The notes beneath the pieces were generated by a model, which saw only the letters and a list, made by a program, of their open reading frames with translations, was not told the origin of the DNA and ran no database searches. A stretch of 42,928 nucleotides of DNA, taken from NCBI GenBank assembly GCA_903857685.1, contig CAIOFO010000147.1, positions 1-42,928 of the forward strand, given 5' to 3'. The first letter of the stretch is position 1. Each line of letters opens with the position of its first letter. Shown here piece after piece: positions 38,510 to 41,348 of this stretch. The stretch is from an uncultured Alphaproteobacteria bacterium (lineage in GTDB: Bacteria > Pseudomonadota > Alphaproteobacteria > Micropepsales > Micropepsaceae). Position numbers and translations under genes: made by a program.

Positions 38510-39666
38510 GCGCCATCAAGGCCTTCATCGCCCATCCGGACTGGAGCGTCTTCGCCGCTCTTGTCCCCCATATCGGCTTTCTGTGGCCGAGTTTCCTGTG
38601 GGGCCTGCTTTTCATACCGCTGATCGTCGCCGTCTATGTTCTGCTGCTGCGGCGGCGCAAGAAAGGCGCCCTCAGCTACGGCAATGTGGCGCTGGTCAAG
38701 CGCGCCATCGGCGTCACCGGCTGGCGCCGCCATGTTCCGCCCGCCCTGATGCTGGCGGCCCTCGCCATCCTGATCATCGCCATCGCCCGGCCCACCGCCG
38801 AGGTGAGCCTGCCGTCCACCCGCGCCACGGTGATCCTGGCGATGGACGTCTCGGGCAGCATGCGCGCCGCCGACGTCACCCCGTCGCGGATCGAGGCGGC
38901 CCAGATCGCCGCCAAGCAATATGTCAAGGACCAGCCCAAGGATGTGCAGATCGGCATTGTCGCCTTCGCCGCCACCGCCTTCCTGGTGCAGAATCCGACC
39001 ACCGACCGCACCAGCCTGAACGCGGCGATCGACCGGTTTGAACTGCAGCGCGGCACGGCGGTGGGCAGCGGCATATTGGTGTCGCTCTCCACCCTGTTCC
39101 CGCAGGATGATTTTCCCCTCAGCAATTTCAACGGCGGCGGCTTCGGGCGCGGCAATGGCGGCGCGGGCTTCGGCGGCGGCAATGATTTTGCCAGCCGCTT
39201 CGGCGGGCGGGCGCTGGGCGACACGCGCGGGCAGGCGGACAAAAAAAAGCACGTTCCGGTCGAGCCCGGTTCCTACAAGAATGCCGTGATCATCCTGCTC
39301 ACCGACGGCGCCACCAATGCCGGTTACGATCCGGTCGAGGCGGCGCGCATCGCTTCGGAATATGGCGTCAAGGTCTATACCGTGGGCTTCGGCACCGTGC
39401 GGGGCAATATTGTCGGCTTTGGCGGTTTCCAGATGCGCGCCCAGCTGGACGAGGATGCGCTCAAGAAGATTTCCGACATGACGCGCGGCCGCTATTTTCA
39501 CGCTGCCAGCGCCGAAGACCTCAAGGCGGTCTATAGCGTGCTGTCCAAGCAGCTGATCATGGAAACCAAGGAGATGGAGATCACCTCCTTCTTCGCCGCC
39601 GCGGCCGCCCTGCTGATGATGCTGTCGGCCGGCCTGTCGCTGGCCTGGTTCGGCCGCATCCTCTGA
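38506..39666 (+). CDS. BatA-like membrane protein with von Willebrand A domain
   Basis: A 386-residue membrane protein. Helices lie at about 25-48 and 79-95, a VWA domain at about 105-345, and a final helix near 362-383. The MIDAS metal site is AMDVSGSM (D114, S116, S118), a Thr in TTDRTS, and TDG at 266-268. A glycine-rich insertion (209-240, GGGFGRGNGGAGFGGG) splits the VWA fold and is unusual. The set MoxR-DUF58-BatA matches the Bat operon core, but BatB, BatC/BatD and BatE are not seen here. A strong terminator follows 14 bases after the stop. Confidence 0.93.
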   Translation: MSAIKAFIAHPDWSVFAALVPHIGFLWPSFLWGLLFIPLIVAVYVLLLRRRKKGALSYGNVALVKRAIGVTGWRRHVPPALMLAALAILIIAIARPTAEVSLPSTRATVILAMDVSGSMRAADVTPSRIEAAQIAAKQYVKDQPKDVQIGIVAFAATAFLVQNPTTDRTSLNAAIDRFELQRGTAVGSGILVSLSTLFPQDDFPLSNFNGGGFGRGNGGAGFGGGNDFASRFGGRALGDTRGQADKKKHVPVEPGSYKNAVIILLTDGATNAGYDPVEAARIASEYGVKVYTVGFGTVRGNIVGFGGFQMRAQLDEDALKKISDMTRGRYFHAASAEDLKAVYSVLSKQLIMETKEMEITSFFAAAAALLMMLSAGLSLAWFGRIL

Positions 39667-39680
39667 ACTGGCAAAAGACA

Positions 39681-39714
39681 AGCGCCGCTCCCGTTTCCGG
39701 AAGCGGCGCTTTTT
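39681..39714 (+). terminator. Rho-independent terminator after batA
   Basis: AGCGCCGCT (39681-39689) pairs with AGCGGCGCT (39702-39710) around a 12-base loop, followed by TTTT. It lies between the convergent batA-like and PRC-barrel genes. On the minus strand the stem is followed by TGTCTTTT, so it may work both ways. Confidence 0.9.
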
Positions 39715-39725
39715 GACGCGATGGC

Positions 39726-40097
39726 CTACTGCCAGTCGCGATTCACCTTGTAGTAGGAATAACTTTCGGCGCGGATGTCGCCCAGGCTGCCGTCATGCTT
39801 GGTGAGATCCTTCAGGTCGTAGGCCGGGGCGTTTTCCAGCCGGTCCTTGCTCAGCGGCACGACATAGCCGCCCTTGTCTTCACTGTAGTCGAGCATGGAC
39901 CACGGCACCGGGTAGTATTTCTCGCCGATACCGACAAAGCCGCCAAAGCCCAGCGCCGCGAACATGATCTGGTTGGACTGCTTGTCCAGCACGATATCCT
40001 CCACGGTTCCGATCTTGTCGCCCTTGTCATTGTAGACGCTGGTGCCTTTCACGCGGGAAGCGAGAATGGCGGTGGTGTGACCGCTGCTTGTCGTCAT
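39726..40097 (-). CDS. PRC-barrel domain protein
   Basis: A 123-residue soluble protein with one PRC-barrel: VKGTSVYNDKGDKIGTVEDIVLD is the opening strand-turn-strand pattern, followed by FGGFVGIGEKYYPVPWSMLDY. Small PRC-barrel proteins of this type are frequent members of the alphaproteobacterial general stress regulon; their molecular role is unclear. GGAGGA precedes the ATG. A perfect GGAAC-N16-CGTT element lies 30 bases upstream (listed separately), so control by EcfG is likely. Confidence 0.9.
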   Translation of the reverse strand: MTTSSGHTTAILASRVKGTSVYNDKGDKIGTVEDIVLDKQSNQIMFAALGFGGFVGIGEKYYPVPWSMLDYSEDKGGYVVPLSKDRLENAPAYDLKDLTKHDGSLGDIRAESYSYYKVNRDWQ

Positions 40098-40126
40098 GAT
40101 GTCCTCCGGTTGGGGTTCGTAACCGT

Positions 40127-40151
40127 AACGGCAACCTTGCCGCTTCGTTCC
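40127..40151 (-). promoter_or_regulatory. EcfG (general stress sigma) promoter of the PRC-barrel gene
   Basis: On the minus strand GGAAC (40151-40147), a 16-base spacer, then CGTT (40130-40127). This matches the published EcfG/SigT consensus GGAAC-N16/17-CGTT exactly. The distance to the ATG at 40097 leaves a short leader of roughly 20-25 bases with a clear GGAGGA ribosome site. Confidence 0.75.
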
Positions 40152-40247
40152 TGCGCGATGCGTTGTTCCACGAACGAAAAGCCTTTTGTTTCATTGCGGG
40201 GCGCAGCGTCCGTTTCCGCACGGGAACTCGGCGAAAAATATTTTGCC

Positions 40248-40273
40248 GGAACGCTGCCGGGCGCGCGCGGGTT
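40248..40273 (+). promoter_or_regulatory. EcfG-like promoter of the Gln/Asn-rich small protein
   Basis: GGAAC (40248-40252), a 17-base spacer, then GGTT (40270-40273): all five -35 bases and three of four -10 bases match the EcfG consensus. Transcription would start about 36 bases before the ATG at 40316. A second GGAAC at 40223-40227 has no matching -10. Confidence 0.5.
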
Positions 40274-40315
40274 ATCGCGGGGTGGGCTGGAAACACCAAC
40301 CGTAAGGAACTCAGC

Positions 40316-40504
40316 ATGACGAACCAGAACAACGACCAGAGCAAGAATCGGCCGGGACAGCAGAACCAGCCGCAGAACCAGCAGAAGAGCGGCCAGCAGG
40401 CCGGCCAGCAGCAGGGCCAGCACGGTCAGCAGAGCGGCGAAGCCAGTCGCAGTTCCAATCCGGACAAGAACAATCTGAACAAGGACCAGATCAACAAGCG
40501 CTAA
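40316..40504 (+). CDS. 62-residue Gln/Asn-rich disordered protein
   Basis: ATG at 40316 with AAGGA upstream opens a 62-residue protein. It is nearly all Gln, Asn, Lys, Gly, Ser and Asp (for example QQAGQQQGQHGQQSG) and ends NLNKDQINKR. There is no hydrophobic core, so it should be intrinsically disordered and very hydrophilic, like small stress or desiccation proteins. The frame is open 51 codons upstream, but that part lacks a ribosome site. A strong terminator begins 20 bases after the stop, and an EcfG-like promoter lies ahead, so it is its own transcription unit. Confidence 0.8.
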   Translation: MTNQNNDQSKNRPGQQNQPQNQQKSGQQAGQQQGQHGQQSGEASRSSNPDKNNLNKDQINKR

Positions 40505-40523
40505 GGCGCCGTTGGACGGTCGG

Positions 40524-40552
40524 GAGCCCGGCGCGAGCCGGGCTCTTTTTTT
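40524..40552 (+). terminator. Rho-independent terminator after the Gln-rich gene
   Basis: GAGCCCGGC (40524-40532) and GCCGGGCTC (40537-40545) form a perfect 9-bp stem with a GCGA tetraloop, followed by seven T. This is a textbook intrinsic terminator. Confidence 0.95.
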
Positions 40553-40658
40553 ATGGCCAAACCGCCTGACTTCAGCCGCCCCGCTTCCGTCCGTCACGCG
40601 CGCGGGGTACACCTTGCCGGGAACAAGCGCCGCCCACCGGGCGAACGGGGAGATCACC

Positions 40659-41348
40659 ATGCGTATTTCCACACTGACGGTAATGCTTCTGCTGACCGCG
40701 CCCGCCATTCTTGGCGTGCCAGCTTGGGCGCAAAATGCCGGTCCGCCCGCGCCGCCGGTGGCCGGGGTCATCCAGTCCTTTGACGGCAAGACCCTGACCC
40801 TGAAGGCCAATGACGGCAGCGTGGTCGCGGCCGCCCTGGCGCCGAATGCCCGCATCACCATGAGCGTCAAGAAGACCCTGGCCGACATCAAGCCGGGCGA
40901 TTTTATCGCTTCGGGCGGCACCCGCGGTCCCGACGGAAAAATTCACGCCAACGAGATCCGCATCTTCAGCGCGCCGGGCGGCGAGGGACAATTTCCCATG
41001 ACCCAGCCGGGCCAGGTGATGACCAACGCCACCGTGAAAGAAGTGATGACCGATGCCACGGTGAAACAGGTGGGCAGCAGTGGCGGTGTGCCGATCATCA
41101 AGCTCAGTTTCCACGGCGCAGGCGCTCCGGGCACGCCGGGCTGCACCGGCCGCGCCTCCGAGGCGCCGGGCGGCGACGGCAAGGGCTGCATCGGCGAGAC
41201 CGAATTCGACGTTCCCGCCAATGTGCCGGTGGTGGCCCAGCTTCCGGGTGATGTCTCGATGCTGAGGCCCGGCGCCAAGGCCAGCATGAATATCAACAAG
41301 GCCCCGGACGGCAGCAGCGCGGCGGCGCGGGTGACGATTTCCCAGTAA
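40659..41348 (+). CDS. Secreted protein of unknown function (DUF5666-like beta repeats)
   Basis: A 229-residue protein with a signal peptide (MRISTLTVMLLLTAPAILG, cleavage probably after AWA at 24). The mature part opens with VAGVIQSFDGKTLTLKANDGS, a beta pattern as in DUF5666/OB-like metal-tolerance or stress proteins, then IKPGDFIASGG. A short internal repeat (TNATVKEVM, TDATVKQVG) sits near the middle, and a Gly-rich segment has two Cys about 16 apart (GCTGRAS, GKGCIGE). GGGGAGA precedes the ATG. The function is not established. It follows a terminator and so has its own promoter. Confidence 0.78.
   Translation: MRISTLTVMLLLTAPAILGVPAWAQNAGPPAPPVAGVIQSFDGKTLTLKANDGSVVAAALAPNARITMSVKKTLADIKPGDFIASGGTRGPDGKIHANEIRIFSAPGGEGQFPMTQPGQVMTNATVKEVMTDATVKQVGSSGGVPIIKLSFHGAGAPGTPGCTGRASEAPGGDGKGCIGETEFDVPANVPVVAQLPGDVSMLRPGAKASMNINKAPDGSSAAARVTISQ

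Follow-up and report, generated by a model that had tools for sequence, protein, structure and literature searches.

The 218-base gap between a PRC-barrel gene and a small glutamine-rich (Gln-rich) gene of an uncultured alphaproteobacterium very probably carries two divergent promoters which are recognised by EcfG, the sigma factor of the general stress response. In the analysed stretch of 42,928 nucleotides (the window), this gap extends exactly over positions 40098-40315, from the start of the PRC-barrel gene (40097, minus strand) to the start of the Gln-rich gene (40316, plus strand). The preliminary description had claimed a perfect GGAAC-N16-CGTT driving the PRC-barrel gene and an opposite-facing GGAAC-N17-GGTT toward the Gln-rich gene, and both are present exactly as claimed (Table 1). 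These two sites, their conservation in related genomes and the occurrence of a linked ECF sigma gene together with phyR and nepR were directly observed, and they suggest that both genes would depend on EcfG and would be induced by stress.

Table 1. Features in and around the gap between the PRC-barrel gene and the Gln-rich gene (promoters and transcription starts are predicted).
Feature	Position	Strand	Remark
Terminator-like hairpin 3' of PRC-barrel gene	39680..39711	-	consensus match only
PRC-barrel gene, 123 aa	39726..40097	-	Pfam PF05239 PRC
Predicted transcription start, PRC-barrel gene	~40122-40119	-	
Putative EcfG-type promoter, PRC side	40151-40127	-	GGAAC-GAAGCGGCAAGGTTGC-CGTT, N16
-35 box, PRC side	40151-40147	-	GGAAC
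-10 box, PRC side	40130-40127	-	CGTT
Putative EcfG-type promoter, Gln side	40248-40273	+	GGAAC-GCTGCCGGGCGCGCGCG-GGTT, N17
-35 box, Gln side	40248-40252	+	GGAAC
-10 box, Gln side	40270-40273	+	GGTT
Predicted transcription start, Gln-rich gene	~40278-40281	+	
GGCTGG block in predicted Gln-rich leader, between -10 box and ribosome site	40285..40290	+	alignment
Gln-rich small gene, 62 aa	40316..40504	+	no match in Pfam or NCBIfam scans
Terminator-like hairpin 3' of Gln-rich gene	40522..40547	+	consensus match only

The PRC-side site combines a GGAAC -35 box and a CGTT -10 box with a spacer in the range of 16-17 bases known for EcfG and is located no more than about 100 bp from the start codon, at position -54. 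The Gln-side site, at position -68 from the start codon of the Gln-rich gene, comprises the same -35 box, a spacer within the same range and a known variant of the -10 box (GGTT; PMC7083833). Since a terminator-like hairpin ends each of the two genes, both are probably transcribed singly. A sigma-70-type promoter in the gap was rejected, as a consensus scan of positions 39650-40660 gave no match.

As bare strings the two sites cannot be regarded as significant, since GGAAC-N15-18-SGTT was observed twice in the window compared to 1.91 expected occurrences, and at least two copies were present in 59 of 100 shuffles. Both copies sit in one gap of 218 bases, face outward and lie at promoter distance, and it is this placement together with the conservation described below, not the bare strings, which makes both sites convincing as predicted promoters. 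In a scan of both strands of the window with a motif matrix, the PRC-side site was the top match with 18.2 bits, and the Gln-side site ranked fourth with 11.5 bits. The matrix was built from 52 hand-picked sites of relatives (24 upstream of PRC genes, 6 of Gln-rich genes and 22 of nepR), with the window sites excluded and the PRC sites of L014, L025 and L094, the Gln-gene sites of G079 and G011 and the remaining nepR sites left out. Since PRC and Gln-rich relatives were thus part of the training, the ranking does not constitute independent evidence beside the conservation. When the gap was shuffled 400 times, a match as good as the PRC-side site appeared in 4 shuffles and one as good as the Gln-side site in 25, while both strands carried a match at least equal to the Gln-side site in 2. 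On the evidence of the window by itself, the Gln-side site has less support than the PRC-side site.

The spacing of the two boxes was also determined for the whole genome. Pairs of GGAAC and CGTT showed a peak at N16, which accounts for 46 of the 82 places with N15-18 compared to an expected quarter (binomial P 2e-9). The total of 82 is lower than the 207 places of a reversed-pattern control, so most of these places need not be promoters. For GGAAC with GGTT, no N16/17 spacing peak was seen among the 37 GGTT places in the matches listed for the own genome, and the Gln-side site therefore needs comparative support.

For the PRC-barrel gene, the conservation could be followed across the genus. 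The protein contains a PRC domain (PF05239, E 1.3e-17, 64 bits compared to a cut-off of 21.2), and 34 of the 69 genomes of the genus, counting the own genome, have a match to it at E<=1e-40. Between -52 and -70, 28 of the 35 distinct PRC upstream regions contain the pattern G[GCA]AAC-N16/17-[CG]GTT; of these 35 regions, with the window counted, 32 come from the genus and three from other records. Excluded from this count were G074 and G069 (of the 34 PRC genomes), three duplicate loci and, from a second set of 20 loci, those overlapping the genus PRC loci as well as the distant L095. Compared to the 28 real sites, 200 shuffles searched between -75 and -45 with the wider pattern GNAAC-N16/17-NGTT averaged 0.2 sites and never exceeded 2. 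Among the 28 conserved sites, 14 have GGAAC as their -35 box, 11 have GCAAC and 3 have GAAAC; the -10 box of 27 sites is CGTT and that of the remaining one GGTT, and the spacer is N17 in three.

The other seven PRC upstream regions contain no site in the tested range (-75 to -45). Five of them (L114-L118) belong to sister genomes with a PRC protein of 84-86% identity. No G[GCA]AAC-N16/17-NGTT was found within 700 bases of the PRC gene in L114, L115, L117, L118 and L091, and in L116 and L092 the pattern lies farther away, at -140 and -146, respectively. The missing site mostly does not reflect a loss of the whole system, as NepR was found in five of the seven genomes: L114 (G081/G084), L116 (G075/G091), L117 (G085), L118 (G087) and L091 (G094), the match in the latter being barely above the cut-off. 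For L115 (G086) and L092 (G095), neither a NepR nor a PhyR match was found. By eye, a palindrome-like GC-rich element GAGCGGCG...GCCGGTT...CGCCGCTCTCG is visible immediately 5' of the PRC gene in L114, L115, L117 and L118, and a similar element is present in L116, in addition to the site at -140.

Other neighbours of the PRC gene were noted in several relatives. In L083, L088 and L089, another gene is divergent from the PRC gene, with GAAAC-N16-CGTT on the side of that gene; the same divergent gene occurs in L090 without that exact site, and its product presumably resembles a hemerythrin-type protein. L077 and L079 carry a second, distinct Gln/Asn-rich small gene, which is convergent to the PRC gene and preceded by GGAAC-N16-GGTT; in L079 this site is followed by a GGGCTGG block.

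The relatives of the Gln-rich gene are more difficult to recognise. A search with the single protein gave matches at E<=0.1 in 7 of 60 genomes including the own one, among which only G063 resembled a true relative, while an alignment of three rows (window, G063 and L082) detected the gene in 9 of 69 genomes, again including the own one. G063 and G105 (identical to L082) match this alignment by construction, and the other six matches range from E 4e-8 to 9e-6. Because of the low complexity of the proteins (53-62 aa in the eight that were read) and of the two matches by construction, the kinship of the six weaker relatives leans also on the shared promoter and leader and is a judgement. In all eight Gln-gene upstream regions with an ATG start, the window included and the starts in L110 and L112 set at an inner ATG, GGAAC-N16/17 followed by GGTT, CATT or TATT is located at -64 to -68, compared to an average of 0.08 and at most 2 in shuffles. 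With the strict pattern GGAAC-N16/17-SGTT, 6 of the 8 regions match (shuffles: mean 0.01, maximum 1). The -10 box is GGTT in these six, CATT in G105 and TATT in G079. The ninth gene, in L107, starts with TTG and shows GGAAC-N16-GGTT by eye.

In G105, the closest relative by identity of the PRC protein (91%), the PRC and Gln-rich genes are also divergent and the gap also comprises 218 bases. The other fetched Gln-gene loci, which cover flanks of up to about 1.5 kb, showed no PRC gene, so the promoter follows the Gln-rich gene and not the pair.

These data bear on the question whether EcfG reads the PRC-side site only, with the GGAAC-N17-GGTT on the plus strand being a coincidence in GC-rich DNA and the Gln-rich gene using another promoter. 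Such a coincidence would fit the fourth rank in the matrix scan, the equal matches in 25 of 400 gap shuffles, the missing spacing peak of GGAAC-GGTT among the 37 listed matches and the CATT of G105, the relative with the same gene order. It would leave unexplained why the site recurs at nearly the same distance in 8 of 8 regions, with GGTT in six of these and additionally in L107. Furthermore, GGTT and CATT are both named among the frequent EcfG -10 boxes in Sphingopyxis (PMC7083833), and a GGAAC-N17-GGTT precedes a PRC-barrel gene in Sphingomonas melonis (PMC6599016). Altogether, a coincidence at the Gln-side site is considered improbable, and a pair of EcfG promoters remains the preferred reading of the gap.

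The predicted leader of the Gln-rich gene is also conserved. Across the seven leaders that were aligned out of nine genes, the GCTGG columns of the GGCTGG block are invariant. The pattern including this block matches in 47 of 69 genomes, and Gln-rich-type genes were recognised at a few of these places. Upstream of the -35 box, a GGGAAC element was seen by eye in 6 of the 9 Gln-rich genes. In L109-L112 it lies about 20 bases 5' of the -35 box and is followed by an inverted GTTCC or TTCC (by eye), which in L109, L110, L111 and L112 could possibly constitute an operator. In the window, the GGGAAC at 40222-40227 is adjoined by an A/T-rich imperfect palindrome instead of the inverted GTTCC or TTCC. 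A limited literature search found no paper joining EcfG and the general stress response to a glutamine-rich protein. Tentatively, and with the chances rather against it, the Gln-rich proteins might be undescribed, lineage-specific, EcfG-induced disordered stress proteins, for which the GGCTGG leader and the GGGAAC element would add a second layer of control over EcfG, either by a regulator or by an RNA partner of the leader.

The genes for the regulators are present and linked in the own genome. Contig C19 (L009) carries an ECF sigma gene and nepR, with phyR divergent from both. The product of the sigma gene contains the domains Sigma70_r2 and r4_2, that of nepR matches PF18557, and the PhyR product shows PhyR_sigma2 and PhyR_sigma-like (PF22029, PF22233), Response_reg and an NCBIfam match to PRK09191 of 348 bits compared to a cut-off of 240. 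Since no sigma-specific NCBIfam model scored above its cut-off for the sigma gene on C19, it is called EcfG on account of its ECF domains and of the linkage to nepR and phyR. The gap between nepR and phyR contains GGAAC-N16-CGTT toward nepR and GGAAC-N16-AGTT toward phyR. Among the relatives, GGAAC-N16/17-CGTT was found 5' of nepR in all 35 rows in which nepR could be located by motif; five of the 40 rows tried were dropped because the gene was not located in this way, some of the 35 represent one genome twice, and 16 of the 46 NepR-positive genomes were left out of this reading, having no locus. On the same contig, a small gene follows phyR (L009 2688-3062), whose product we take to resemble a helical, membrane-anchored protein of the ElaB/DUF883 kind.

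NepR was found in 26 of 28 PRC-positive genomes compared to 20 of 32 PRC-negative ones (Fisher P 0.006), which is indicative only, as the genomes are related. In G065 the PRC site is kept though neither NepR nor PhyR was detected, and in G014 the Gln-gene site is present without a NepR match, while PhyR matches are present.

That transcription from one or both sites relies not on EcfG but on a different ECF sigma factor with a -35 box of the AAC type appears still less probable than a coincidence at the Gln-side site: the -35 box of the PRC genes is GCAAC in 11 of 28 and GAAAC in 3 of 28 cases compared to the GGAAC kept at the nepR promoters, and the sigma comparison in the own genome covered only the gene beside nepR, but the PRC site of the window is a canonical GGAAC-N16-CGTT, and GCAAC ranks among the top two -35 boxes, by frequency, of EcfG-dependent promoters in Sphingopyxis (PMC7083833) and is also contained in the S. 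melonis table (PMC6599016). GAAAC occurs in two rows of that table only, with scores of 4.68 and 11.3 and without the GTT end (PMC6599016).

For the two EcfG promoters preferred here, the course of events would be as follows. Under stress, a sensor kinase causes the phosphorylation of PhyR, and phosphorylated PhyR binds NepR, by which EcfG is freed. RNA polymerase containing EcfG would then transcribe the PRC-barrel gene leftwards from the minus-strand site and the Gln-rich gene rightwards from the plus-strand site. The suggestion of the preliminary description that both genes probably belong to the PhyR-NepR-EcfG regulon is well supported, judging by the presence of phyR, nepR and the sigma gene, the comparable sites upstream of nepR and phyR, the near-fixed distance of both sites upstream of related genes, and the PRC-barrel genes in published EcfG/RpoE2 regulons (PMC6599016, PMC6180224).

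With this, comparative evidence allows two genes of an uncultured alphaproteobacterial genus to be assigned to the general stress regulon, and the promoter type stays with each gene even where the pair of PRC and Gln-rich genes is broken up. The type of control is already well known, and the gap is a further instance of it. Two findings are less ordinary, namely a family of small Gln-rich genes whose leader contains a conserved block, and the fact that some of the sister PRC genes have lost the site. The Gln-rich family represents a small, testable candidate effector of the general stress response.

Among the known systems that resemble the present one most is S. melonis Fr1, where GGAAC ... 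GTT sites are enriched within 100 bp of the start and where PRC-barrel gene #1478, preceded by GGAAC-N17-GGTT, is among the top EcfG-dependent genes with a log2 ratio of -4.5 (PMC6599016). The dependence was measured there, whereas it is predicted from the sequence here, and the GGAAC-N17-GGTT of the PRC gene in S. melonis is found at the divergent Gln-rich gene in the window, where the PRC gene has N16-CGTT. In Sinorhizobium meliloti, the PRC-barrel gene SMb20522 is responsive to RpoE2, and the promoter listed for it contains GGAAC-N16-CGTT, as in the window; the gene differs in responding to RpoE6 too, and a divergent Gln-rich gene is not mentioned in the consulted parts of that paper (PMC6180224). 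Mesorhizobium loti has two PRC-barrel genes in a table of heat-induced genes (PMC3989490). The TATT variant of the -10 box in G079 has no counterpart in the consulted parts of PMC6599016, PMC6180224, PMC7083833 and PMC3989490. Sphingopyxis granuli TFA resembles the present case in that its EcfG1/EcfG2 promoters most often carry GGAAC or GCAAC as the -35 box, and promoters with CGTT, TGTT, CATT and GGTT as -10 boxes were chosen there as templates for in vitro transcription; it has two EcfG paralogs (PMC7083833), whereas the present analysis covered the sigma gene adjacent to nepR.
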